This document shows positions 20,530-38,017 of a stretch of 64,000 bases of DNA, piece by piece (within the stretch, counting starts at the first letter, position 1; each line of letters starts with the position of its first letter). The DNA is from an uncultured Myxococcales bacterium. GTDB taxonomy: Bacteria; Myxococcota_A; Bradymonadia; UBA7976; VGTA01. The notes under the pieces are model-generated. The model was given only the letters and a program-made list of their open reading frames with translations. It did no database searches and was not told the DNA's origin. A program made the position numbers and the translations under genes. Location of the stretch: NCBI GenBank assembly GCA_937146725.1, contig CAKZRU010000098.1, positions 1 through 64,000 of the forward strand. Reading direction: 5' to 3'.

Positions 20530-23500
20530 TTACTCGCCTACTTGAGTTTCTAATAAGTACCAATTTCCGTTAGAAGAAGGACCGATCACAATATCGTCGG
20601 CACCATCACCATTAAGATCCATAACATGAATACGTTCGGGCTTATTGGTAGAATCTTCTACGCTCCAGTCTTCACGCCAATCCACCGCCCATTGCTTGTC
20701 ATAAAAGCCTGAGCCACTATGTCCTTGTAAGAGTTGCCATTCTCCTAAGTCACCCTTTGGCCCAACGAGTATAGCTGCCGGTGCGTTTGCTTTGGGATGC
20801 ATGACTCGTATACGACGGGCATTGTCAGACCAGTTTTCATAGTTATTATGAATTGTTCCTTCATAGCGTAAACTGGCGGAGGTAACACCAGAACCTGCGA
20901 GCATATACCAATTTCCATTAGCGCCACTTGGTCCTAAAACAATATCATCTCGGCCATCTCCATTAAAGTCAGCAATCCAAAAACGCTCACTATTCTCATG
21001 CCAATTTTCATAAGCTTGGCGTACACAACCGCGATCAATAAAGTCACTAGGGGCAGCGCTACCTTGTAGTAAGTACCAACAGCCATTTACACTATATGGA
21101 CCGATCACAATATCATCACGGCCATCCCCATTGGCATCTAAGACTTTTATGCGCTCGGCATTATCCCACCAACCCCCATAGCTTGTGCCCACTGTACTTA
21201 AAGCGCGTCCGGCATTAAAGTCAGCCACTGAAGCCACCCGGCCTTCCAGAATATACCAAGCACCAGCCGATGAAGGGCCAATCACAATATCATCAGCACC
21301 ATCACCATTGACATCAAGAGGGCGGATACGCTCGGCTTTACTTGACCAATTATCTTTGTATTCAACCACACAGCCTCGATCATTTAAATCGGCGCCTTGT
21401 GCAGTGCTTGTGCCCTGTAAAACATACCAGCAACCATCCACACTGTAAGGTCCAATCACAATATCATCACGCTGATCTCCGTTAACATCCATAACTCGGA
21501 TGCGATCGGTATTATCCCACCAACCAGCATAGGCTTGCACAACACAGCCACGATCAATAAACTCGCCGGATTGCTCACCTTGACTGCCTTCTAGTAAATA
21601 CCAACAGCCATCTCCTTGATTAGGGCCTAAAAGCATATCATCAGCGCCATCACCATTGACATCGAGTACCCATAACCGTTCGGTACGATCCCACCAACTT
21701 GCATAGTGATTTGAAAGCAGTCTGACTTCATCTCGACTATGTCTAGAGCGGATTGCTTGGTTTAGGCTGGTTGCATTGGAAGCAAAGGTATTGGAAATGG
21801 GTAGATCATAAATATAAGGAAAATAACTACTCCAAGGAAACTCCCAAAGCGGACGATTTTGAAAGTGACGGCTTCCGGATTCGGAAGCAGACCACAAATG
21901 CTTACCGACTCGAGCTAAATCTTCTCCACCGGCCACACCACCTTTAACTGTTACTCGACCTAAGCTTTGGACTTGAGCGCCCTCACAGTTAGTGTTGGCA
22001 CAGCGAGCAGCGCTTAGTGAGTCTTTATAAATGTAGCTATCATTATCACCGTAACTGACGCTGACATAAAGTAGGTCACCATCAACATCTATACCTTGAG
22101 CTTTTTGACGAATCTTAAAGGTCTGGTCGGCTTGTCCGCCTTGGATGGTGCCATCATTTAGGTTGAGCTGGTAGGCATAGGCTTGTGCTATACATGAACC
22201 ACCATTACAAAATTGTCCTACCATCAGATAATCGCTTTGATCGATCATCACGTGGGAAACAAAGGATGAGGCAGAAACAACCCAACTCAAGTTATTTGCT
22301 CCACCCAAGAGCCCACAGGCATCTAAGCTTCCATAATTGAGTTGATTTGGGGCTAACGCAGGCTCTTGTAGCAAGGTGGGTACGGTGTAGCGTTCAACGC
22401 GACTTCCACCACTTGCATACAAGTAAGCAGAACCACTGTGACTACGAGCAAATGCTAAGCCACCTACATGAGAGTCTTCGATCTCGCCGGAAAGTAACCA
22501 ACACCGAGTCATTTCAAAGTTTGCTGTGGCGGGATTGAGTTCAACAATCATTGAGTTTTTATCACCAAAACCACTGTCGCTTGCATCATTGCCATCCGCA
22601 TCTTTGTAATAAAGACTTAAATATAGACGCTCATCAGTACATTCGTGAGCTGGACGCGCTTCGCAGCTAGAAGCAACCCCTTGTACAATATAGCTCTCTT
22701 GTAAAAAGGGAACGAGCGCATCTCGATGATCAAAATGACAGTCGGTTCGACAGCCATGATCAACTAAATCAGAGTTAGCTGCACCTTGATCACAGCGCTC
22801 ACCATGGCTGACTTCGCCATCGCCACAATATGCAGTTTGGCCATCCACTAGCTCACAGTTCGCGTTACAGACTTGGCAACTTTGCTGTCCATATTCGCAA
22901 TTGAGCTCAATCAGACCAGCGGTATCGCAAGCTTCATTGGCTTGCAGTTCTCCATCACCGCAATATGATGTTTGTCCAGTAACTAGTTCACAGTTAGCAT
23001 TACAAACTTGGCAATTTTCCTGTCCATATTCACAATTAAGATCGACAAGACCCGCAGTATCACAGGCTTCATTGACATGGAGTTCTCCATCACCACAATA
23101 AGATGTTTGTCCAGCAACCAATTCACAGTTGGCATTACAGACTTGGCAACTTTCCTGTCCATATTCACAGTTTAGGTTAATCATACCCGCTGTATCACAA
23201 TCTTCAGGTGCTTGGACTTGGCCATCACCACATTGATCCACAGGGATTTCCATATCGACGGGCAAGACTTCCATATCAACAGGCAAGACTTCCATATCGA
23301 CAGGCAAGACTTCCATATCAACAGGCAAGACTTCCATGTCGACAGGAATAACATCCATGTCGACAGGAATAACATCCATGTCGACAGGAATAACATCCAT
23401 ATCAGTGCTTGGGCTTTCCATGTCTTCTTGTGGAGGCCTGGTATCAGCAAAAGAAAATTGCATATCACTATAAATCTCATCATCTGACGCCTGTGAGCCT

Positions 23501-23613
23501 TGAGCACAGCCAGTAAGACAGATCAGAATAAAGATTAAACTCCCAAACCAAAGTCGAGAGTTTACTGTGAATTGATATCTGAATTGATATCTGAATTGAG
23601 ATTGAAAGGGCAT
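20530..23613 (-). CDS. Large lipoprotein with Asp-rich stalk, Cys repeats and FG-GAP repeats
   Basis: A lipoprotein signal ends at lipobox CLTG-C (about residue 35). Next comes a stalk of 7-residue repeats such as PVDMDVI and PVDMEVL (about 70-122). Three near-identical 45-residue Cys repeats follow (about 128-262), each CGDGE..., CDTAGL, NCEYGQ, CQVCNANCELV, plus a fourth degenerate one. A beta-rich region covers about 280-620. Residues about 640-1027 hold seven FG-GAP/VCBS-like repeats of about 55 residues, each with DVNGDGADDIVIGP and a WYLLEG strand. FG-GAP repeats form beta-propeller blades and bind Ca2+. It is probably a surface adhesin or binding protein. It is encoded convergently with the mevalonate kinase gene. 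Confidence 0.88.
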   Translation of the reverse strand: MPFQSQFRYQFRYQFTVNSRLWFGSLIFILICLTGCAQGSQASDDEIYSDMQFSFADTRPPQEDMESPSTDMDVIPVDMDVIPVDMDVIPVDMEVLPVDMEVLPVDMEVLPVDMEVLPVDMEIPVDQCGDGQVQAPEDCDTAGMINLNCEYGQESCQVCNANCELVAGQTSYCGDGELHVNEACDTAGLVDLNCEYGQENCQVCNANCELVTGQTSYCGDGELQANEACDTAGLIELNCEYGQQSCQVCNANCELVDGQTAYCGDGEVSHGERCDQGAANSDLVDHGCRTDCHFDHRDALVPFLQESYIVQGVASSCEARPAHECTDERLYLSLYYKDADGNDASDSGFGDKNSMIVELNPATANFEMTRCWLLSGEIEDSHVGGLAFARSHSGSAYLYASGGSRVERYTVPTLLQEPALAPNQLNYGSLDACGLLGGANNLSWVVSASSFVSHVMIDQSDYLMVGQFCNGGSCIAQAYAYQLNLNDGTIQGGQADQTFKIRQKAQGIDVDGDLLYVSVSYGDNDSYIYKDSLSAARCANTNCEGAQVQSLGRVTVKGGVAGGEDLARVGKHLWSASESGSRHFQNRPLWEFPWSSYFPYIYDLPISNTFASNATSLNQAIRSRHSRDEVRLLSNHYASWWDRTERLWVLDVNGDGADDMLLGPNQGDGCWYLLEGSQGEQSGEFIDRGCVVQAYAGWWDNTDRIRVMDVNGDQRDDIVIGPYSVDGCWYVLQGTSTAQGADLNDRGCVVEYKDNWSSKAERIRPLDVNGDGADDIVIGPSSAGAWYILEGRVASVADFNAGRALSTVGTSYGGWWDNAERIKVLDANGDGRDDIVIGPYSVNGCWYLLQGSAAPSDFIDRGCVRQAYENWHENSERFWIADFNGDGRDDIVLGPSGANGNWYMLAGSGVTSASLRYEGTIHNNYENWSDNARRIRVMHPKANAPAAILVGPKGDLGEWQLLQGHSGSGFYDKQWAVDWREDWSVEDSTNKPERIHVMDLNGDGADDIVIGPSSNGNWYLLETQVGE
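22828..23232 (-). repeat. Three tandem 135-nt Cys-rich coding repeats
   Basis: The units at 23232-23098, 23097-22963 and 22962-22828 each encode 45 residues with eight Cys. Cys spacing and most residues are conserved between units, so they arose by duplication within the gene. Confidence 0.85.
23248..23401 (-). repeat. 21-nt tandem coding repeats (lipoprotein stalk)
   Basis: Seven full units plus a partial unit of 21 nt encode the heptads PVDMEVL/PVDMDVI. Two subtypes form blocks: an L block (23248-23352) and an I block (23353-23401). The near-identical DNA suggests expansion by replication slippage. Confidence 0.85.
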
Positions 23614-23683: not shown

Positions 23684-24043
23684 TTATTCGCCACGATATA
23701 CACAGCCACTTGTACAGGTTTCAAAGGTTTCTACCTTACTAAGTTCGGGAAGTAAGGGCTTCATTTTATTCCAAATCCATACCGCCAAAACTTCACTGGT
23801 TGGATTTTCTAGCCCCTCAATCTCATTTAGATAATGATGATCAAGTTGGTCATAATAAGGCTTAAAAGCAGCTTTGATATCAGCAAAATCACGTACCCAG
23901 CCGGTTTGAAGCCCTAAAGGGCCTTCTAGATATAGCCTTACTTTGAAGGAATGGCCATGTAAGCGACCACACTTATGTCCTTCGGGTACATTTGGCAGGT
24001 GATGTGCAGATTCAAATATAAACTCTTTATAGATCTCTACCAT
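23684..24043 (-). CDS. queD: 6-carboxy-5,6,7,8-tetrahydropterin synthase
   Basis: Second step of queuosine (7-deazaguanine) synthesis: converts dihydroneopterin triphosphate to 6-carboxytetrahydropterin. The N-terminal [10 protein letters not shown] holds the first zinc-binding His, and [14 protein letters not shown] holds the catalytic Cys and the HGH zinc ligands. FADIKAAF and DHHYLNEI follow. The length, 119 residues, is normal. It lies 24 nt downstream of queE in a queC-queE-queD operon. Confidence 0.94.
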
Positions 24044-24067
24044 ATCTCATTCCTTTTATTTTTTCTC

Positions 24068-24733
24068 TTAAGGGATACCGATATACTTATGAGTTTGAAG
24101 ACTCAAGCGCCACTGAGGATTCATCAGACAGTATTTAATTGCGGCTTGTGTGTTTTCAGCCTGCTTTGGGCCATCCATAGGCTGTAGGTAAAAACGTTTA
24201 AAATTAAGCTTGGTAAAAAGCTCAGGTTGCGCTTGAAGTTCGACTTGGGGATAAACGAGTTTAAGCTCATGTCCCTCGGTTAAAACCAAGGGCGCATTCG
24301 CTTTGGGGCTAACACAGATATGATCAATCCCTTGCGGGGCTTTTTGAGTGCCATTGGTTTCAACAGCAATTTCAAAACCAAGGCTATGTAAGTGGTCCAC
24401 TAAGGCTTGATCTAGCTGTAATAAAGGCTCACCACCTGTAAAAACAACTAAAGCATGCTCGTTTTCTTGTGATTGATCTTGAGCTTTAGTTGATCCATCC
24501 CAGGTTTCTTGAATGGCTTTTCCAAGACTTTCAGGATCAGCAAAGCGACCTCCTCCCTCACCATCAGTGCCGACAAAGTCTGTGTCACAAAAGCGGCACT
24601 GAGCTTTGGCTCGGTCTTGTTCTCTGCCGCTCCATAAATTGCAGCCTGTAAACCGACAAAATACCGCGCTACGTCCGGCTTGCATCCCCTCACCTTGAAG
24701 GGTGTAATACATTTCTTTAACTTTATAACTCAT
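24068..24733 (-). CDS. queE: 7-carboxy-7-deazaguanine synthase (radical SAM)
   Basis: A radical-SAM enzyme that contracts the ring of 6-carboxytetrahydropterin to 7-carboxy-7-deazaguanine. The cluster-binding Cys follow the QueE pattern C-x14-C-x2-C, starting at GCNLWSGR and ending CRFCDTDF, instead of the common CxxxCxxC. YYTLQGEGMQAGR and VFTGGEPLLQ, ETNGTQ and CVSPKA are all family signatures. The length, 221 residues, is normal. It begins 5 nt after queC. Confidence 0.95.
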   Translation of the reverse strand: MSYKVKEMYYTLQGEGMQAGRSAVFCRFTGCNLWSGREQDRAKAQCRFCDTDFVGTDGEGGGRFADPESLGKAIQETWDGSTKAQDQSQENEHALVVFTGGEPLLQLDQALVDHLHSLGFEIAVETNGTQKAPQGIDHICVSPKANAPLVLTEGHELKLVYPQVELQAQPELFTKLNFKRFYLQPMDGPKQAENTQAAIKYCLMNPQWRLSLQTHKYIGIP

Positions 24734-24738
24734 TATAT

Positions 24739-25443
24739 TTACACATAGGGGGCCGGGTCTGAGATTCCATTTTCCATAAAGCCCTTAAGCCGTAAAGCGC
24801 AGGCATCACATTCACCACAAGCTTCACCTTGCTCACTTGGTGCATAGCAGGTTACTGTTTTGCTGTAGTCTACGCCCAAGGCCAAACCCTGCTCTATAAT
24901 TTGAGCCTTACTCAGGTCGATAAGAGGCGTATGAATGGTAAGTTTTTGGCTACCTTCAACACCAGACTTAGTCGCCAAATTCGCCATTTTACTGTAAGCT
25001 TCGATATATTCGGGCCGGCAATCCGGATACCCACTATAGTCTACAGCATTGACTCCAATAAAGATGTCATGTGCTTCTAAAACCTCTGCCCAAGCAAGGG
25101 CAAAAGATAAGAAAATGGTGTTTCTTGCAGGTACGTAGGTGATGGGAATCCCCTCGGACATATCATCAATTTCTCGTCCTTTGGGAACTTCAAACTGATC
25201 GCTAGTAAGTGCTGAACCACCAAATATTCTCAAATCAATTTCAGCAATCACATGTTCAGCAACATTAAACTGCTTGGCAACACGCCGAGCGGCTTCTAAT
25301 TCTATCTCATGCTTTTGCCCATACCGAAAAGTGATTGCATAGGTGTCAAAGCCCTGTGCTTGAGCAATGGCCAAAATGGTTGATGAGTCAAGACCACCAC
25401 TTAACAGCACAACCGCTTTTTTCTTGTGATCATTATTGTTCAT
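24739..25443 (-). CDS. queC: 7-cyano-7-deazaguanine synthase
   Basis: ATP-dependent conversion of 7-carboxy-7-deazaguanine to preQ0. The PP-loop motif [10 protein letters not shown] is at the N-terminus, [10 protein letters not shown] follows, and the C-terminal zinc site is CYAPS...[10 protein letters not shown] with four Cys. It leads the queCED operon and has AGAGGA 7 nt before its ATG. queF and tgt, needed to finish the pathway, are not in the window. Upstream by 66 nt is a lipoprotein gene in the same direction, so read-through from the Mla-like operon is possible. Confidence 0.95.
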
Positions 25444-25509: not shown

Positions 25510-26109
25510 TTAAAGGACGTTAATATCGACATCAAAGATGACCTTGATTTCGATGGTTGTATCTACTTCGGGGCGACGTGAATCATCGATTTCAATCGTA
25601 ATTTCTCCCCCACCCTCAAGCAGATAGTTCTTTAGGTCATCATCTATGGTTTCAAAGCTGATCTCTCGATCTCCACTTTGAGGAGGCATAGCGGTGGCCA
25701 TTTCTAGTTTGGGTAAGTCATTGGCTTGAATATAAAAACGCATAGCGCCCAAAAAAGAAAGATCGGCATTTTCATTGTCCGGAGCCGTGATCTTCATGGT
25801 GAGTGCTTTTAAAGTAATCTTATCGACATCATCACTAGAATAACCAGTATCAGAAAAGGCTTGTTGCTGGCTTAAATCAACTCTTGTAAAGGCATCGAGC
25901 TGTGGAAAACCACCTAAAACACTTTCAAGCATACTGCCCTTTTGAATGGTGGTTGAGGTGGTAATCGGTACTTCGATGTTATCTAAGGATTCGAGATCCT
26001 TTAAAGTATCACCACAGGCAAAGCTGAAGAGGGAAATCAGAAAAACACTGATAGGTAATAGGAAGTTCCAAAGGTTTTTCGAAGTGTTCAAGTTTAATGT
26101 TGTATTCAT
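25510..26109 (-). CDS. Lipoprotein of unknown function at end of Mla-like operon
   Basis: A hydrophobic stretch FLLPISVFLISLFSFAC ends in a lipobox (FSFA-C, about residue 32). The remaining 168 residues are acidic and beta-rich, with regularly spaced hydrophobic strands and repeated DD/DN pairs; it ends in a strand-like IEIKVIFDVDINV. No family is recognised. It starts 30 nt after the GTPase gene with AAGGA as ribosome site, so it probably belongs to the 32230-25510 transcript. An outer-membrane component of that system is plausible but not shown. Confidence 0.8.
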   Translation of the reverse strand: MNTTLNLNTSKNLWNFLLPISVFLISLFSFACGDTLKDLESLDNIEVPITTSTTIQKGSMLESVLGGFPQLDAFTRVDLSQQQAFSDTGYSSDDVDKITLKALTMKITAPDNENADLSFLGAMRFYIQANDLPKLEMATAMPPQSGDREISFETIDDDLKNYLLEGGGEITIEIDDSRRPEVDTTIEIKVIFDVDINVL

Positions 26110-26139
26110 AAGTCCTTACTTTCTTTTTTTAGGATAGAT

Positions 26140-28956
26140 TTAGGGTGTATTTTGCTTTTCTAGCCAATTCAATTCAAATAACCACTTTGGTAAGGGATGG
26201 CTACTTTGAAGTTTAACTGAGCAGAGATCTTCCGGAGCAAATTGAATGGTGCCATTAGGTGGATCTCTGTGTTCATGCCATTCTTTAGTGAGCCCTACAA
26301 GATCATCATCTTGCTCAACTTGCTCAACTTGCTCAACTTGCTCAACTTGCTCAACTTGCTCAACTTGCTCAACTTGCTCAACTTGCTCAGGTTTAGTGGT
26401 AGGCACAGGTGGTGGGCCAGCTGAGTTTTGCTGAGCCGTAGGAATCACACGAGGGTCCATACTGCCATCTTGGTCATAAATTGAAAGCTTGAGTTTTTGC
26501 CATGGTGACCACGTGATTTCAACGCTTTCTCCCTGACTAAGTTGAGCCACATCAAGCCAAGCTTTATCTTGCAGAGCTTGTACTCTTACATAGTAGGTCA
26601 TCTGATCAGGATAATACACAGTGTAATATGACCAATGTCCTTCATTGATCTTATAACCCAATGCTTCAAAGCGATCGTCATTACAGGTGATACTTTCGAG
26701 CATTAAACTCAATTTTTGAGGCTCGATCCATTTCTGGAGTTCGATCAGGCGAGTATTCCACAACTTAAGTGAGCCTTTGATATCATTGGCACCATTTAGG
26801 CTTTGTAAGGTTGCCAAGTCTAAGTGCATCTGCTCTATCGCTGTTTGTAACTGAGTAGGATCTTGATGCGTACGACTAAGTGCATGGGTGATTTTATTCT
26901 GCCATGAAAGTTCGGCTTGGCTCAGACGTACTCGGGCGGCTCGGTGATGGTCTAAATAGTTCTCTGCCCATTTAATCATTTCTTGAGCTTGCAATGATTG
27001 TTTTTGCTGGTCGACTTCACGATTAAGAAGCTCTACCCAGTGACTCATAATCTCCTTAGGCATTGCTAGATTAAGCATATATTGGCTTTCTAACTCACGG
27101 CGATTAAGTTCAAAGTCTTGAATCAAGCGTAAGCGTTTTATTCCAGCGTTTAGCTTACTCTGACTGAGTTGGCCCAATAAGCTTTGCCAAGCTCTATGCC
27201 AAGTCTGTTTTAACAGTCGTTGATAATTAAGAACAATCGGGTCTCTTGGACTGAGAACTTGTGGATTAAGTACTTGGCTATCACTTTGCCATCTCAATAA
27301 GGGAGAAAGATGCAGAAAGAGGAGTTTCTGAGGATTTTTGATCATAACCTTAGTATTGATTTGAGAAACCTGTTGCAGTGAAACCTCTAGGGTCTGCTTA
27401 TAAATACTTAGATAACTGTCATGAATAAGACATGTAAACTTATCTTCTCCCTGTGAGTATTCACAGCGTTTACGCCATTTATTGAGTTCTAAACTTTTAA
27501 AAAGCTCTTGAGGCACGACTATGCTTTGGCTAGCTGTTAGTTTTTGTCTAGTATTTATATTTTGAATTAAGCTATTGATATCATTGATAAAACTAACTTC
27601 GGTTTCTTTTCTTTTTAGCCACACTGCGACTTGCTTTTGAAAGCTTAAATATTGTTCAAGCTCTTGGTTGAGTTGCTGCTCTGCTTGTGACAGATTCCGT
27701 TCATCAACTAAGCTTTTAATAAGCACACGACTTTGATCGTTTAAGTGCTTATAATAAGCGGAGTTAAGAAGCTTCAAGTCCTTATGGAGATCATCTTTAT
27801 AAAGGCTTAAAGGGTGAAAGATGGATTGTGCGCTGTGATAGGCCTTAATATAGGGCTGCGAAGATGTATTTAAGCTACCCCAATCCCAAGTTACATCACC
27901 TCGAATGGTGGGTAGCGTACTCATTTGGAACACTCCTATCAGCCACCAAAGTAAGAAGCCAGACAAAAGCAAAGTAAAAGACAGCTTTTTTTGACTTGTT
28001 TTATATTCTGCTTGTACTTGCTGCCAATGTGCTTGACGCTCAAGTAGTCGCTCTTTGACTTGGTTGAATAGACTTAAACCAAAGTGATTGAGTTCTGACC
28101 ATTGGCTTTCGGCATGCTCATCGACTGAGGTCCAATAGATCTTTAATGCTGATTGATGAGCTTTAAGTTGTAATAAGGGTAGGACTGTTGAGAGTATATA
28201 GTCTTCCCAGAGCTTAATATGCTCAGAGTCTATTTGTTGAATAAGATCACTTTTACTGATGATCAGATATACTGAACCAGCGGGAGAATGTTGATAGTAG
28301 CGCTCAAGGATTTGCGTATAGTGAAGCATTGAAGGGTATGCTTGCTTTTGCTCAAAAGCCTTAACAAGTTCGGGGCCATCCAAGACTAAAACTAAAGCTT
28401 CGCTTTGACTAAGGATTTGGTTGAAATGCCCTTGATGACCACGCTCGTCTAATAAGAAATCACCCGGAAAGTTGTATAGATTTAGGCAATAAGGCTTGAG
28501 CGCATCAAAGGTGCTTTTTAAGTAAACCTGTTCCGGATGTGTATCTTTTTGATAACGATCTTTTGTAAAGAGTGTTCGTCTCACTCGAATCAAGCTTTCG
28601 CTACTGTATTCATCTAGATTGAGTTGTGAGTCTCCATCATAATCCGATAGCTCTTTAAGATGTCGACCTCTGAGTTTTTCTTCTTCTCTATGGCTCAATA
28701 AGCGTATATTTAAGTGCGGACTTGCATATGAGCTAAATTGATAGCCAAGATGAGCAATTAGCTGACTTTTTCCGCTTTCACAGCCCCCAACAAAGCTGAT
28801 GTTGAGTATGGTTTGTTCGCCTATTTTTTGAGGATTTAAGTGTGGGTTATGTAAAGGATGCTCTTGAACGGCTTGAGAGGCCTTCCAAAATTGCAGAGCA
28901 CTTTTTACACTGTATGCTAACCCAGCTAAAGCCGGAATGATTACAAGACGGGTCAT
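26140..28956 (-). CDS. Membrane-anchored GTPase with TssM-like topology
   Basis: The first ATG overlaps the stop of the ABC gene (TAATG). A hydrophobic segment lies at about 4-25. A P-loop GTPase-like domain spans about 50-300: GGCESGKS at 57-64, a DxxG-like NFPGDF, VLVLDGPEL, and a G4-like ISKSDL near 236. A second hydrophobic helix, LLLSGFLLWWLIGVF, lies at about 327-345. The last 590 residues are helical, then end in a beta region (TWSPWQKLKLSIYDQDG) and a (VEQ)n tract. One cytosolic GTPase between two helices with a large outer part is the topology of type VI TssM/IcmF, but no IcmF signature is seen. It may energise or gate the ABC system upstream. Confidence 0.75.
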   Translation of the reverse strand: MTRLVIIPALAGLAYSVKSALQFWKASQAVQEHPLHNPHLNPQKIGEQTILNISFVGGCESGKSQLIAHLGYQFSSYASPHLNIRLLSHREEEKLRGRHLKELSDYDGDSQLNLDEYSSESLIRVRRTLFTKDRYQKDTHPEQVYLKSTFDALKPYCLNLYNFPGDFLLDERGHQGHFNQILSQSEALVLVLDGPELVKAFEQKQAYPSMLHYTQILERYYQHSPAGSVYLIISKSDLIQQIDSEHIKLWEDYILSTVLPLLQLKAHQSALKIYWTSVDEHAESQWSELNHFGLSLFNQVKERLLERQAHWQQVQAEYKTSQKKLSFTLLLSGFLLWWLIGVFQMSTLPTIRGDVTWDWGSLNTSSQPYIKAYHSAQSIFHPLSLYKDDLHKDLKLLNSAYYKHLNDQSRVLIKSLVDERNLSQAEQQLNQELEQYLSFQKQVAVWLKRKETEVSFINDINSLIQNINTRQKLTASQSIVVPQELFKSLELNKWRKRCEYSQGEDKFTCLIHDSYLSIYKQTLEVSLQQVSQINTKVMIKNPQKLLFLHLSPLLRWQSDSQVLNPQVLSPRDPIVLNYQRLLKQTWHRAWQSLLGQLSQSKLNAGIKRLRLIQDFELNRRELESQYMLNLAMPKEIMSHWVELLNREVDQQKQSLQAQEMIKWAENYLDHHRAARVRLSQAELSWQNKITHALSRTHQDPTQLQTAIEQMHLDLATLQSLNGANDIKGSLKLWNTRLIELQKWIEPQKLSLMLESITCNDDRFEALGYKINEGHWSYYTVYYPDQMTYYVRVQALQDKAWLDVAQLSQGESVEITWSPWQKLKLSIYDQDGSMDPRVIPTAQQNSAGPPPVPTTKPEQVEQVEQVEQVEQVEQVEQVEQVEQDDDLVGLTKEWHEHRDPPNGTIQFAPEDLCSVKLQSSHPLPKWLFELNWLEKQNTP
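26311..26389 (-). repeat. 9-nt coding microsatellite (VEQ)n
   Basis: Eight perfect copies of TTGCTCAAC plus a partial ninth encode repeated Val-Glu-Gln at about residues 855-882 of the GTPase. A 9-nt unit changes length in frame, so slippage would not disrupt the gene. Confidence 0.95.
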
Positions 28957-30749
28957 TAGTTGGCCTCAGCGAGTAAAAGAATAAAAAAGAGTAATAAAGT
29001 CACCAATACACTCATAACATTGGCCTTACTTAGATTTTCCATAGTTTCTAAGCTCGATTTTCTTTTTTGAGCACCATAATACGTACTGATCAGAGCGATT
29101 GCTAAACCGGAAATAACGGTTTTAACAATAAACATACCTGTTCCATCAAACCAAAACATGCCACTTGGTTTTAGGTTTGCCCAATATGTATCAGCCCATA
29201 TATAATAGGTACAAAGAGGGTTGGTTAGCATGGCGACAACAAGGGAACCGAGAGAGGCACACCAAAAGGCCAGGTATGATAATAAGGCACAAGATACTGA
29301 GAATGTGAGTAGTAATTGAGGAACAAAAAACCATAAAGGCGGAACGCCAAAGTTTTCTAATGCTTCCCATTGACGCTTGCTTTCATCCCGCATTTCCGAA
29401 AGATAGGCAGTCACAGCAGTACCGGCTCGAGCAGCAACGCAAATACAGGTAAACAAAGGAATTAAGGCGCGATATAGCACCACACCAAAACCAGAAAGCA
29501 TTTGCTCAAAAAAAGTGGGTAAAACAAAGCGACTTACCTCAACTGTTCCCAAGTCTTCCACAGCCACACTACCTAACTCCATATTGAATGAAAAATAGGT
29601 GGCAACAGCACCTAGACCAAACCCCGCTAAAAGGTGAAAAGGCAGGCCCTGAATTAAAATCCGCTGAAAAAAACGCTTAAGATAAACTCGTGCCCAAGAA
29701 CTTTTTAAGCTGTTCAAGCCACGTTGCATTGAAGCGATGAAATTAGGGAGCTTTTGTGCTAATTGTAAATCTAGAACTTGCGCATTATGCTTGAGTTCTT
29801 CTTCAAGAGAAAATGATCTTTTGGCCGGTAAGCGAGTTTGCGCTAAACGCTTTTGGTATTCATCAGCGGTGACAGGTGGGCATTCGTTGATAAACTCGCG
29901 GTCTTGACTCAAAAACCAAACTCGATCAGCGACTGGAAGAAAACGCTCATAATCGTGTGTAATAACCAAGGTGAGTGCACATTGAGATCGATCATGTGCT
30001 TGACGAATCATTTGAATCGCAGTTTCTGCGCTTAAGGGATCCAAAGCTGATGTTGGCTCATCAAAAATCATAATTTCTGGCTGATATGCCAACATGCGTG
30101 CTAAAGCGACTCGTTGCCTTTGACCTCCTGATAACGAACTCACTGCTTCATGCATCAGAGTATCAGGAAGTTGTAAGTCTTTCATGATATCTTCAATCCA
30201 ACCATTCCACTTAAGATCTGGCTTTGGATGACGAGAGCGATCATTGGCAAACTTGAGATTTTCACTGACTGTTAGGTCATCAAAAAGTGCCAAAGACTGA
30301 AACATAACGCCGACACGACCTCTAAGTAGCTCGGGATAGCTTTGACCTAATATTTCTACTTCAATGTTATGAGCACTGTGAGCTTGCTCTTGCTCTTGCT
30401 CTTGCTCTTGCTCTTGCTCTTGCTCTTGAGAATTTTGGAGTGAGTGAGTCAGTTCATTAAGACGGAGTTTAATCGAAGGGTTTAAGCGTTGGTCACCACG
30501 ATTGATATAAAGGCTTTGGCTGACAGGTGAGGTAATATCGAGTAGGAAATTGGTGAGTAAGCTTTTGCCGGCACCACTTGGGCCAAGTAATAGAACAAAA
30601 TCACCGGTTTGGGCACTTAGTTCACAAGAATGATAAAGCTGTTCTGCTTGCTTACTTGCTTGAGCAGACCCTTTTTCTGGAGGCCGGATTGATTCTAAGG
30701 CAAACTGACTAATCTCGATCACGGGTAATGATTTAGGTTCTGTGTTCAT
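28956..30749 (-). CDS. Fused MlaF-MlaE-like ABC transporter (ATPase plus permease)
   Basis: Residues about 10-290 are an ABC ATPase: Walker A GPSGAGKS at 56-63, signature LSGGQRQRVALARML near 205, Walker B IMIFDEPTSALDP, and H-loop VITHDYE. Residues about 345-597 match the MlaE permease family, with AARAGTAVTAYLSEMRD and ALENFGVPPLWFFVPQLL as the conserved cytoplasmic loop. MlaF and MlaE are normally separate proteins that move phospholipids between membranes; here they are one chain. An (EQ)7 tract (109-122) lies in the ATPase between Walker A and the Q loop. Its ATG overlaps the upstream gene by 4 nt, and its stop overlaps the next start, so the three products are probably made together. 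Confidence 0.9.
   Translation of the reverse strand: MNTEPKSLPVIEISQFALESIRPPEKGSAQASKQAEQLYHSCELSAQTGDFVLLLGPSGAGKSLLTNFLLDITSPVSQSLYINRGDQRLNPSIKLRLNELTHSLQNSQEQEQEQEQEQEQEQAHSAHNIEVEILGQSYPELLRGRVGVMFQSLALFDDLTVSENLKFANDRSRHPKPDLKWNGWIEDIMKDLQLPDTLMHEAVSSLSGGQRQRVALARMLAYQPEIMIFDEPTSALDPLSAETAIQMIRQAHDRSQCALTLVITHDYERFLPVADRVWFLSQDREFINECPPVTADEYQKRLAQTRLPAKRSFSLEEELKHNAQVLDLQLAQKLPNFIASMQRGLNSLKSSWARVYLKRFFQRILIQGLPFHLLAGFGLGAVATYFSFNMELGSVAVEDLGTVEVSRFVLPTFFEQMLSGFGVVLYRALIPLFTCICVAARAGTAVTAYLSEMRDESKRQWEALENFGVPPLWFFVPQLLLTFSVSCALLSYLAFWCASLGSLVVAMLTNPLCTYYIWADTYWANLKPSGMFWFDGTGMFIVKTVISGLAIALISTYYGAQKRKSSLETMENLSKANVMSVLVTLLLFFILLLAEAN
30384..30425 (-). repeat. 6-nt coding microsatellite (EQ)7
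   Basis: Seven perfect copies of TTGCTC encode Glu-Gln repeats within the ABC ATPase domain. The unit preserves frame, so copy number can vary without loss of the protein. Confidence 0.95.
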
Positions 30750-32230
30750 GGTTTAACCTGTCCTTTAATTTGCCCCTGTTCACTATGAGGAAAACGATGA
30801 CCGGGTTTAAGCGTATTACCTTGCCCAGGATATACATGGACAATCGGTCGTTTTTTTCCACTGAGCTGCTCTTGGATTACAGAGAGCAAAAGTGGATTTG
30901 GCCCCTGACCCTGCTCGTCAAGCAAGATAGAGTTCATACCTTTTTGAGCAATCAGCTTTAATTCAGATCCCAAAGTATCGATGTTATTTGAAAAACTTTG
31001 TGTACTACTCAATTCTCGAAGTGCGCCAACAATTTGTGCCAACCCTTTTTCTCCATATTCTTTTTTAAGATGTTGAATCAAGACTTGATCTTGGCTGAGT
31101 GCCTGCCAAAAATGCTTGAGTAAAACTTTACTCTTAAGTTTTTGGTTAAGGTGAGCGAGTACTTGTTGGGCTTCTTGTGAAGCCTGTGGCCATTCTTGGC
31201 TGAGACTGCCATAGACTTGCTTGGCTAGGTCTATGCCACCACCTTTGGCTGATCGAATGACGATATTTTGTGCATTCTTACGAATACTAGAGCATATCTT
31301 TGAGTCACCTAGCTCAAAAAATGAACCTAAAACACCACTCAGACTCGTGGGATCTATAATGCTTGCAACAGAGAGTGCGCAATAGCCCATATCTATACTA
31401 AAGGCGCCTTGTTCCCATTCGTCATTGATTGTTTTAGAGGTATTTTTACTAAACTCTTTGCTTCCCATCCATACGCCTTTGCCAAGTTCCTTAAAGATTT
31501 GCTTCCAGCGGACATTTTTAAAAGCTAAAGCGCCTAAGTTGCCTAGAGCTTGATCATTTTCAAGGGCCTTTGAAAGCTCGGTTAAGTTAACTCTAGCTGC
31601 GATTTCGATCATAAAAGCCTGTTTTAAATGATCAATGAAAACAGGGTCTTGTATTAAACGAGTTGTCAGGTCACTTGGTAATGAGTTGGCGAGTTTTGTT
31701 TTAATGTTAGGCCAAAAAGCAAACCAAGATGCTTGGAGTCTTTCTTGGCTCTTTTTCATCTCCTTTTGTAGGTTTTGCCCTCTTGCGGAATAGAATAGGT
31801 CTTGGATAAGAAGTTCTACCGATGGCGCTTGAACTCTTAAACTAAATTGAGTTTCACTTTTGAGTAAGTATTGGGCCGCTTCCGGAAATAGTCCTAAAAC
31901 TAAACGACTTTGCCCTTGGTCTTGAATGAGTTTTTGGCCCAAACCAACCAACTTTAAATGTGGTTTTACCTGATGAACTGCGACCCGTTGCGGTGATTCA
32001 GCAAGTTGCTCTTGTTCGCTTTTACTTAGATGTTGTGCATCGACTTCCACTTGAATCAGTTGTGATTGCCCCAGAGGAGTGCGAATGAACAAAGTTGAGT
32101 TCAGAGAAAAAAGCTTTGGTAAAGCGAGAGCAGTCATAAAAAGAGCACTTAAAATAATCAGTACTATTGTGATTTGATAAGTAAGACCTCTCAACTTAAA
32201 CAGACTAAACCATAATTTGAATTTAGACAT
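30746..32230 (-). CDS. Single-pass membrane protein, candidate divergent MlaD/MCE partner
   Basis: Residues about 18-40 form one transmembrane helix with a basic cytoplasmic start; the remaining 450 residues should lie in the periplasm. MCE domains are usual at this place in Mla operons. Residues about 60-130 show a faint MCE-like pattern: a GLGQKLIQ turn, a strand SRLVLGLFPE, then SETQFSLRVQAPSVE, comparable to the 'dSrFwv..P' strand of MCE proteins. I cannot confirm this by eye. The rest is helical with one Cys pair, and the C-terminus is Gly/Pro/Gln-rich. It is the first gene of the operon, divergent from the Fur-family gene, and overlaps the ABC gene by 4 nt. Confidence 0.75.
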   Translation of the reverse strand: MSKFKLWFSLFKLRGLTYQITIVLIILSALFMTALALPKLFSLNSTLFIRTPLGQSQLIQVEVDAQHLSKSEQEQLAESPQRVAVHQVKPHLKLVGLGQKLIQDQGQSRLVLGLFPEAAQYLLKSETQFSLRVQAPSVELLIQDLFYSARGQNLQKEMKKSQERLQASWFAFWPNIKTKLANSLPSDLTTRLIQDPVFIDHLKQAFMIEIAARVNLTELSKALENDQALGNLGALAFKNVRWKQIFKELGKGVWMGSKEFSKNTSKTINDEWEQGAFSIDMGYCALSVASIIDPTSLSGVLGSFFELGDSKICSSIRKNAQNIVIRSAKGGGIDLAKQVYGSLSQEWPQASQEAQQVLAHLNQKLKSKVLLKHFWQALSQDQVLIQHLKKEYGEKGLAQIVGALRELSSTQSFSNNIDTLGSELKLIAQKGMNSILLDEQGQGPNPLLLSVIQEQLSGKKRPIVHVYPGQGNTLKPGHRFPHSEQGQIKGQVKP

Positions 32231-32853: not shown

Positions 32854-33825
32854 CTAAAAAGCACAGCGACAAATCGCCAGACCACCTCTTGTCCCACAGT
32901 CTCTTGTGCTTCTGCTCTGACAAGTTATAGAAGATGCAGTCCAAGCAGCTGTGCAACGTCCCCTAGCCTGCTCGCAAAACTCATCACAATCTTGGTAAGA
33001 TAGCCAACCCAAGCCCCATAAAAGATCCACTTGATAGTTGCAATCCTGCGAGTTAGGTAAAGCATTACCACAGAAGCGAGCATCACTGATTTGTGGGCAA
33101 GATGCATTAGGTCCCATACGATTCATACATTCCCCGCTGGCAGTACACACTCCATTTCCATTATTACAAGCCTGTCCGGGCGTTGGAGTTAAGCTTGCTT
33201 CTTCTTGCCCTGAACACCCTTCCATCGTCACACACTCTGGTAAATTGACTGTGGCAATAATTTCCTCCTGTACTGAACAAGCATCTTGAACATCACTCAA
33301 GCAACTTCCTTGCTCACAGAGTTGCTCTTTGGGAGTATAACTCACTTGAATACAAGCCGAAACTCCTCCGGGACTTACTTCTTTTCTGAACTCATTAAAG
33401 CGAGAGCACTCAGGAATGGGACAACCTCCTACTTGATCATCCACTTGAATTTGACCATTAACACAACTTTGGCAGGGCGCTAAGCCAATATTGGCGCTAC
33501 ATTCGTCAAAGCCTTGGTCAACTAAAGGGCCTTGGTCAACTAAAGGGCCTTGATCAACTAAAGGGCCTTGATCTGCTAAAATACTTTGATCTGAGCTATC
33601 CAAGATCATGTCATCTATAATCACTTGTCCACCTTGTACCCATGGGTCGGAAGGTGTAGGAATCCCGGCGGATTGGTAGCCAGAACTTGGGTCAGAGATC
33701 GGCGAGCAGCCTTCATCTTCTTCAAAGCAATCGAACTGAGAAAAGTCAGTACAAGCATGAGTCATCAGTACGCAAACACATATAAGTAGATGATTGACTG
33801 TAGAATGATACTTAGATGTAGGCAT
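32854..33825 (-). CDS. Cys-rich lipoprotein with LVDQGP repeats
   Basis: Lipoprotein signal with lipobox MTHAC (about residue 25). An acidic linker contains the repeats LVDQGP (about 88-106). The remaining 215 residues have more than 20 Cys, including CSVQEE and CNNGNGVCTASGECMN, which are EGF- or knottin-like disulfide patterns. It ends CGTRGGLAICRCAF. No enzyme motif is seen. It is convergent with the Fur-family gene, 29 nt apart. It belongs to the same loose class as the other repeat-stalk lipoproteins in the window. Confidence 0.82.
   Translation of the reverse strand: MPTSKYHSTVNHLLICVCVLMTHACTDFSQFDCFEEDEGCSPISDPSSGYQSAGIPTPSDPWVQGGQVIIDDMILDSSDQSILADQGPLVDQGPLVDQGPLVDQGFDECSANIGLAPCQSCVNGQIQVDDQVGGCPIPECSRFNEFRKEVSPGGVSACIQVSYTPKEQLCEQGSCLSDVQDACSVQEEIIATVNLPECVTMEGCSGQEEASLTPTPGQACNNGNGVCTASGECMNRMGPNASCPQISDARFCGNALPNSQDCNYQVDLLWGLGWLSYQDCDEFCEQARGRCTAAWTASSITCQSRSTRDCGTRGGLAICRCAF
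33511..33564 (-). repeat. 18-nt tandem coding repeat (LVDQGP)
   Basis: Three near-identical 18-nt units, then a degenerate fourth, encode LVDQGP in the stalk of the Cys-rich lipoprotein. Units differ by one G/A change. Confidence 0.85.
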
Positions 33826-34142: not shown

Positions 34143-34907
34143 CTAAGCCCAAGCGTGACTAATACGGTCAGTTGAAGACTGCCATTGGGTAGGTAATAAG
34201 CTCCGAACCTCAGACATGGGGGTGGTTTGAACCCGCAGAAGTACATCCGAAAGATATTCTTCGGGATTGATGCCACACAAGCGGCAGGATTGAACTAAAG
34301 ACAGAACCACAGCGTAGGATTCTCCACGGCCTGCACTCATGAACATGGACGTTTTTCGGGCTAGTGCAACTCTGCGAAGCAGTCTTTCGGCATGGTTGTT
34401 GTCTAAAGGGATGATGGGATTGGTTAAAAACTGAGTCAAAGCTTCCCATTGGTTCAAAGCATACTTGATTGCTTTACCAAGTGGTGATTTAGGAGGTATT
34501 TGTGGGTTCTTTCTGTCTAGGATTGCTTTGAGTTCTAACATGATGGGCTGACTTTGCTGTTGCCGAACTTCTAAGTGCTGTTCGGTACCCTCAAGCTTTT
34601 GACGCTTTACTTCAGCTTCAATGCGATATAATGAAGCGATTAAATCAATGATTTCTTTTGACTCATCAGGTGCTGTAACAAAGGCTTCCACAAAGTAACG
34701 GCGGGCATGCGCCATACAGCCCACTCTGGTCCAGTCTTCAAGTTGAGCGACTTTGTTGTAGCCAGCATAACCATCAGTCATGAGAATCCCATTCGCATTT
34801 TTTAAAAGCTTTCCGAAGCGGAATCCCAAAGCGGCTCCATTGATCTGCTTGCCGGCTAAAAGGAATAGCATCATAAGCGCAAAAGTGGCTATTAGCTTTT
34901 TATTCAA
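34143..34907 (-). pseudogene. IS66-family transposase, C-terminal remnant
   Basis: From about residue 35 the frame matches the IS66 catalytic and C-terminal regions: GILMTDGYAGYNKVA (second catalytic Asp region), VGCMAHARRYF, IPLDNNHAERLLRRVALARK (last acidic residue) and the IS66_C end, LCGINPEEYLSDVLLRV. IS66 transposases have about 500 residues; the N-terminal half, with its zinc-binding and first catalytic Asp, is missing. The first 30 residues form a hydrophobic stretch (FALMMLFLLAG) with no IS66 match, probably sequence fused at a deletion point. No TnpB or TnpC gene is adjacent, so the element is dead. Confidence 0.85.
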
Positions 34908-36583: not shown

Positions 36584-38017
36584 CTATCGCATCATAATCC
36601 GATATTCTACATCCTCCAAACTTGCCCCCTGACGAGCCAACTCATCCTGTAAAAAAGGTCCAAGAGTATCTAAAACTAAGTAGTACTGTTGACGAGGCAA
36701 AGGCTGAAACATGAGTCTCACCACTTCAAAGTTGGTTCCAAGATTGTAATTATCTTGGCAAGCAAGAGGAACATAAGTCGCATTACAATCGGTGGTGACA
36801 CTAAGAGTAATGGGTAATAATACACCGTTAACGGAGACTGAAGCATTTAACTCAAAGGGTTGCATAAGGTCTTGCTCAGTCTCGTAAATAAACACAACTT
36901 CTGAGCCTTCATCCACGCCTAAGCGACCATCATCAATCACAAGACATCCGGATTGAGCTCGCCTAAGTTGTGATGCACTTGCTAAACCATTGGCTGTGAC
37001 AATTGCTTGCTCATAAGGAATAGGGCTTTGGCAAGAACTTACTCCATTATCCCGAGTACACTCTCTTTGTATGCAAAGCTCACCCTCCTGACAGTCCCCA
37101 TCAAGATTACATAGTCCTTGTGGTAAAGAAATACAGCTGAGTTCATTGCAATAGCTCAGCCCATAGCAGTTAGCAGCACCGGCTTCTCCCTCACAGCATT
37201 CAGAAGCCATTGCTGCTGCACTTTCATCAATTACTTGATCACAGTCATCATCATAGCCATTACAGATTTCAGTGATTGAAATAGGGCTAGTAGTCCAAAT
37301 CCCTTCTTGGCACTCATCATAGCCACAGGTTGCTCTTTGCCTGTATTCTCCGTTGGTACACCCAGGATCAACATTGACTTGCACATTTAAAAGGTCTCCT
37401 AGTTCGCCATCACTCACACTGAAGATAAGCATATAGGTTTGACCCCCTTGTGCAACACTAGGCGTCCAAGCAAGACTTTGGTCATTCGGATTAAAAACTG
37501 CACCATTAGGCAAACTACCAGCCGTATAAACCAAGGATTCAGGGTTGTCATCCATGGCGGAAATCGTAAAAGAAATTAACTCACCAACTTGAGCTCTTTG
37601 ACGCCTAACAGGGTTAAAAACAGGAGGCTGATTAGTATCTATTTCAGTACCACCTAAACCGGTATCGGCCACATCTGCATCCATTACTTCTATATCCATA
37701 CCGGCGACTTCGGCATCAATCACCTCCATATCCATACCGGCGACTTCGGCATCAATCACCTCCATATCCATACCGGCGACTTCGGCATCAATGATCACCA
37801 TATCTAAAAGCTCGGCATCGCTCATTTCATCCGGTATCATATCAGAGTGATTTGGAGAAGCTCGTGCATCCAATATCTCTGTTATGATGCCTCCACTTGG
37901 GGGGTCTATCAGGACTTGATCATCACTATCACAGCCGGTGCTGAGTATGTTCAAGCTAATACATAGTGCTACAAAATACAGGCGACTAACAATAAGCCCA
38001 AAGTTTTGATGAATCAT
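36584..38017 (-). CDS. Lipoprotein with repeat stalk, Ig-like domain and MopE-type motif
   Basis: Lipoprotein signal with lipobox ILSTGC (about residue 29). A stalk of 12-residue repeats (VIDAEVAGMDME, three copies) spans about 73-115. One putative Ig/cadherin-like domain (He_PIG type) follows at about 130-215, with GELISFTISAMDD and LAWTPS and a final VSDGEL. Then CNGYDDDCDQVIDE at about 250 is the MopE-type metal-binding motif known from copper-binding proteins, and a Cys-rich part follows. The last 150 residues are beta-rich. Surface location is likely; the ligand is unknown. Confidence 0.85.
   Translation of the reverse strand: MIHQNFGLIVSRLYFVALCISLNILSTGCDSDDQVLIDPPSGGIITEILDARASPNHSDMIPDEMSDAELLDMVIIDAEVAGMDMEVIDAEVAGMDMEVIDAEVAGMDIEVMDADVADTGLGGTEIDTNQPPVFNPVRRQRAQVGELISFTISAMDDNPESLVYTAGSLPNGAVFNPNDQSLAWTPSVAQGGQTYMLIFSVSDGELGDLLNVQVNVDPGCTNGEYRQRATCGYDECQEGIWTTSPISITEICNGYDDDCDQVIDESAAAMASECCEGEAGAANCYGLSYCNELSCISLPQGLCNLDGDCQEGELCIQRECTRDNGVSSCQSPIPYEQAIVTANGLASASQLRRAQSGCLVIDDGRLGVDEGSEVVFIYETEQDLMQPFELNASVSVNGVLLPITLSVTTDCNATYVPLACQDNYNLGTNFEVVRLMFQPLPRQQYYLVLDTLGPFLQDELARQGASLEDVEYRIMMR
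37692..37799 (-). repeat. 36-nt tandem coding repeat (lipoprotein stalk)
   Basis: Three copies with a 36-nt period encode the 12-residue repeat VIDAEVAGMDME. The first two are identical; the third diverges only at its end. Confidence 0.9.

Follow-up and report, generated by a model that had tools for sequence, protein, structure and literature searches.

The window, which is the whole 64,000-nucleotide stretch of DNA analysed here, carries on its minus strand four neighbouring genes that we designated A to D. Gene A (30746-32230, minus strand) is predicted to encode a divergent MCE protein of 494 aa, and gene B (28956-30749, minus strand) encodes an ABC ATPase and an MlaE permease in one chain. 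Gene C (26140-28956, minus strand) probably encodes a membrane GTPase of 938 aa, and downstream of it gene D (25510-26109, minus strand) encodes a small putative lipoprotein. A and B overlap by 4 nt (30746-30749) and B and C by 1 nt (28956), and a gap of 30 nt lies between C and D. No promoter or terminator signals above chance were found across the A-D region.

A sequence-only reading of this region had regarded the four genes as one unit. Its open reading frames, coordinates and overlaps were correct, but D was found not to be conserved with A-B-C. The A-B-C order is kept in five of six copies from three genomes, despite an identity of 18-28% among the C proteins, so the gene order conservation that had been looked for in relatives exists for these three genes and not for D. 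A homolog of D is absent from the two closest genomes (G001 and G002), and its sole relative, with 54% identity, is located in an unrelated context in another genome (G010). For these reasons D was left out, and the conserved unit is three genes (A, B and C), not four.

The minus strand also carries, immediately after D, queD-, queE- and queC-like genes for queuosine precursor synthesis (window 23684-25443). A transposase-like fragment at 34143-34907 is apparently truncated and IS66-like by eye. Putative surface lipoproteins with tandem repeats near the N-terminus are encoded at 20530-23613, 32854-33825 and 36584-38017. Their repeats, such as DMDVIPV/DMEVLPV, DQGPLV and DMEVIDAEVAG, resemble linker repeats that are common to unrelated proteins.

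The predicted MCE protein A and the one-piece pump B

As known from MlaFEDB, LetB and Mce1, lipids cross the envelope by way of MCE proteins, which are arranged as rings or needles on an MlaE-type permease; A and B directly fit this scheme. Protein A consists of one TM helix (about residues 16-48, with the TM segment itself predicted at 20-38), a small beta domain (59-134) that is the candidate MCE domain, and a long helical region (138-436), which agrees with its earlier description as a single-pass protein. A conserved motif, GPNPLLLxVxxE-LSG-RPxV, is located toward its C-terminus. Single-sequence scans of the window protein gave no match in Pfam, including PF02470, in NCBIfam, or in PADLOC, and PF02470 detects 2 of the 40 members of the A family, with a best E of 4e-4.

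When the profile of the Planctomycetota A proteins was compared by hhalign with an MCE profile made from 24 PF02470 domains of relatives, a Prob of 89 and a pairwise E of 2e-6 were obtained, with the TM helix and the MCE domain in register. The Prob was 94 for an A profile of 34 sequences and 91 for a 40-row alignment that included the window protein. In the shuffle control, the real A profile scored 48.8 against a maximum of 20.1 across 60 column-shuffled profiles. The five A sequences of the window's own family alone showed no hhalign match to the MCE profile, so that the Planctomycetota relatives were needed; window A matches the Planctomycetota A proteins with a Prob of 96 and an E of 5e-9.

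The AF2 model of window A reached a pLDDT of 79-90 in the beta domain. Its best PDB matches by Foldseek were LetB, YebT, MlaD, PqiB and Mce1 structures, with probabilities of 0.95-1.00, most of them close to 1, although the E-values were only 0.013-0.2. The MCE domain that had been expected in A was thus recovered by profile-profile comparison and by AF2/Foldseek, though PF02470 itself gives no match. Taken together, the profile comparison and the model give good support to the placement of A as a divergent member of the MCE proteins, probably anchored in the inner membrane, with a long helical extension. Weak matches of the A profile were also seen elsewhere in Myxococcota; two were inspected, one of them in an HlyD-like protein, and neither was an MCE protein.

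Protein B contains an ABC ATPase (about residues 41-284) and an MlaE permease (about 355-597). Both Pfam domains were over the cut-off, ABC_tran (PF00005) with an E of 2e-26 and MlaE (PF02405) with an E of 2e-18 and 67 bits (cut-off 22.5), in agreement with the fused ABC ATPase-MlaE permease reported from the sequence alone. The motifs of the ATPase, namely Walker A (GPSGAGKS), the Q-loop, the signature (LSGGQ), Walker B (DEPTSALD) and the H-loop, are intact. B can therefore be assigned, with good support from its sequence, as an MlaFE-type ABC transporter in which the ATPase is joined to the permease. A low-complexity (QE)n run is inserted in B at about residues 110-125.

Another fused ABC-MlaE gene (L006, G004:C34:8683-9882), followed by a canonical PF02470 domain (G004:C34:10032-10259), was found in same-order relatives. 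Because these relatives carry the fusion together with a canonical MCE domain, the joining of ATPase and permease is not peculiar to A-B-C; it defines a family that Planctomycetota share.

The A-B pair is similar to the Mla core of E. coli (MlaF-MlaE-MlaD) in having an MlaE-family permease, an ABC ATPase and an anchored MCE protein, and the long-MlaD type of Veillonella parvula also has an MCE protein with a helical extension, as in A (PMC10665443). Unlike in the Mla core, the ATPase and the permease are here one polypeptide, the MCE domain is too divergent for Pfam, a GTPase is added, and two copies co-exist in a genome that also harbors canonical MlaE and MCE genes. In contrast to the canonical six-part Mla system, neither the A-B-C operon nor the corresponding operons were found to encode MlaA, MlaB (STAS) or MlaC. 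The sequence-only reading had suggested that a GTPase and a lipoprotein replace or add to the usual Mla parts. The GTPase does appear as an addition, but an MCE protein is present as A, and the lipoprotein is outside the unit.

Protein C, a candidate membrane GTPase

Protein C has an N-terminal hydrophobic segment, a G domain (about residues 46-300), a TM helix (325-343) and a helical outer region (about 350-745). Two membrane helices and an outer domain had been described for it; one TM helix is clear, while the N-terminal segment is weak in the window protein but clear in three of four relatives. The charges flanking these segments suggest that the G domain is cytoplasmic and that residues 345-938 are periplasmic.

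The G domain carries the G1 (GGCESGKS), G3 (NFPGD) and G4 (SKSD) motifs. Window C matched Gtr1_RagA (PF04670) with 27.9 bits against a cut-off of 22, and DO-GTPase2 (PF19993) was sub-threshold in window C and over the cut-off in two orthologs. RagA was found in a PDB profile search (E 0.003). Foldseek with the C model returned RagD, RagC, Gtr1-Gtr2 and Arf-like GTPases, although some designed helical proteins ranked higher and the quality of the model is poor (pLDDT 55). A Rag/Ras-type P-loop domain was therefore found in the Pfam, PDB profile and structure searches alike, as had been anticipated for a GTPase. These data support well the assignment of the N-terminal part of C as a putative P-loop GTPase domain of the Rag/DO-GTPase2 type, the fold neighbours being taken from a low-confidence model.

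The C-terminal domain (746-938) has a conserved C758, WxPW and YxQDGxxD, and the pattern WxPW...QDGxxD...D is kept in all five C sequences. No known fold was matched by the outer/C-terminal domain. A C2 domain at the C-terminus was an impression by eye, and fold searches gave no support for it; the repeat in the window row was removed by hand there. A low-complexity (VEQ)n run is inserted in C at about residues 856-882, and this stretch has 84% identity to a second gene in the window's genome (G000:C77, L043).

Two copies per genome and the distribution of A-B and C

Each of the three genomes of the family has two A-B units, here called copies I and II. In every copy, B is immediately preceded by a homolog of A, and C is beside five of the six. 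The exception is copy II of G002, where neither all three forward frames at the end of the contig nor a six-frame profile search revealed a C after B. The B homologs in the two nearest genomes show 65-69% identity to window B (65-67% in another comparison of relatives), the second-copy B in each of the three genomes about 50%, and the homolog in G006, a Myxococcota genome further removed, 28%. In G006, A and B are back to back with apparent canonical MlaE, MlaF and MlaD (MCE) genes (L037:345-7256, G006:C183).

The trees of A and of B agree in grouping copy II of G000 with copy II of G001 and copy I of G001 with copy I of G002, while the window copy and the second copy of G002 are not firmly placed. 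This grouping suggests that copies I and II diverged earlier than the genomes. The ATPase motifs of B are intact in every copy read, in copies I and II alike. G1, G3 and G4 are present in all three C-I, and all GTP motifs are lost in both C-II. The co-conservation of a copy II that has intact A and B and a C without GTP motifs suggests that the products may assemble into a hetero-oligomer in which an active G domain is paired with an inactive one. Such a pair recalls the Rag-type and double-GTPase heterodimers, and DO-GTPases are often present as two paralogs that are thought to dimerise (PMC7159879). C is similar to DO-GTPase2 (PF19993) and Rag/Gtr (PF04670) in G domain sequence, fold and this two-paralog tendency, but it differs in being joined to a large outer-facing domain, in its link to a lipid transporter, in a second paralog that has no GTP motifs and in the absence of a GAP1 partner.

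A canonical MlaE and long MCE pair is located elsewhere in the genome of the window. Only one PF02470 protein was found per genome in the three genomes of the family, whereas each genome of related families had between 1 and 8 matches. On the best reading, A-B-C is a transporter that exists alongside the canonical Mla genes.

A permease-based scan of contigs gave 15 loci, ten of which come from Planctomycetota or another bacterium. The A profile matches the neighbour of B in six of these (E 1e-5 to 1e-12), and some of the remaining ones have a similar single-pass ORF beside B. A is present in 37 of the 199 sampled Planctomycetota genomes, and B adjoins A in 26 of the 30 Planctomycetota loci retrieved, three of the other four being short or cut. 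A-B also occurs in two other Myxococcota families, with one pair in G220. C was found in 3 of 284 genomes of the phylum, all belonging to the family of the window, and it was absent from 11 A-B genomes found by other searches. Since Planctomycetota and at least two further genomes of Myxococcota have A-B but no C, C is an accessory component: A-B is a wider family, and the GTPase C is an addition by the window's own bacterial family.

MCE/ABC lipid transport is a class of machine that is already known. What is unusual here is an MCE family that Pfam misses almost entirely and that is coupled with a one-piece pump, and the lineage-specific addition of a GTPase/pseudo-GTPase. Surveys of MCE transporters have relied on a Pfam profile (PMC5561183) or on homolog searches (PMC10665443). 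A whole MCE sub-family with a one-piece ABC-MlaE pump nearly escapes the Pfam profile that such surveys use, and it is present in roughly a fifth of the sampled Planctomycetota, whose outer-membrane lipid supply is poorly understood.

A possible role of C in lipid transport

No report of a GTPase as a component of an MCE transporter was found in the literature searched on MCE systems. We see an even chance that A-B-C is a three-part MCE/ABC lipid transporter to which a GTPase/pseudo-GTPase pair has been added as a switch or envelope tether. By comparison with the Mla and Mce1 structures, two B proteins, or a B-I/B-II pair, would form the transporter, and the A subunits would form an MCE ring and needle on top of B. 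Lipid would move between the inner membrane and the periplasm or outer membrane. C would flank this complex, the G domain lying close to the ATPase and the periplasmic part following the needle, and GTP binding by C may open, assemble or tether the MCE channel, bringing the transporter under GTP control. C seems suited to couple a nucleotide switch to the channel, because its cytoplasmic G domain joins a long outer part through the membrane. The copy II unit of G002 is a point against C as an integral part. If the proposal is true, the dedicated GTPase and its inactive twin in copy II are a directly testable switch for the regulation of MCE transport.

An alternative that we consider unlikely, though to be taken seriously, is that C is mainly structural. 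Its outer helical and C-terminal domains would brace the MCE needle or extend to the outer membrane, leaving the G domain as a decaying or purely anchoring remnant that does not switch. The identity of the G domain between the C copies is 15-26%, no better than that of the rest of the protein, and the W-x-PW, QDG and D motifs stay in all five sequences although both C-II are pseudo-GTPases, as this alternative would have it. On the other hand, G1, G3 and G4 are kept together in all three C-I, and between the C-I of G001 and G002 the G domain is 63% identical compared with 42-43% for the rest of C, which points to purifying selection on the copy I G domain and argues against a mere remnant.

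The switch proposal can be extended to two paralogous MCE transporters that would be combined in one hetero-oligomer and switched by a membrane-spanning active GTPase and pseudo-GTPase; we consider this extension quite doubtful. Both for this and for the main proposal, the mycobacterial Mce1 system offers a precedent: its permease is a heterodimer and its MCE ring a heterohexamer, both made of paralogs, and it includes an accessory membrane protein, LucB (PMC9882608). Mce1 differs from A-B-C in that it has no GTPase, a separate ATPase (MceG) and six different MCE proteins per operon.

It is also improbable that C belongs, as a DO-GTPase, to a biological-conflict system and is merely co-transcribed with the lipid transporter. 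DO-GTPase2 was over the Pfam cut-off in two orthologs, and DO-GTPases were reported to occur as paralogous pairs, some with TM segments (PMC7159879), but the proteins of the unit include no GAP1 domain match and no effector, a PADLOC match is absent, and both copies keep C in a stable order with A-B, in contrast to variable defence modules. We give hardly any weight to the idea that C is a relative of TssM/IcmF from type VI/IVb secretion, the unit borrowing a piece of the T6SS membrane complex and D being its TssJ-like lipoprotein: the overall topology is alike, as the sequence-only reading had noted (a cytoplasmic GTPase, a TM helix, a large outer domain and a lipoprotein nearby), but neither window C nor its orthologs gave an IcmF-type Pfam match at E up to 10, the structural neighbours of C are Rag/Arf GTPases, and D is not conserved with the unit.

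Protein D gave no match in single-sequence Pfam, NCBIfam and PADLOC scans, and it carries a lipoprotein-like signal, LFSFAC, consistent with its previous description as a lipoprotein. In two relatives, the gene after C encodes a small protein other than D (L053:12556-13056; L054); it belongs to no known family and starts with FxFTSGRRSxHHxHTGYGL.
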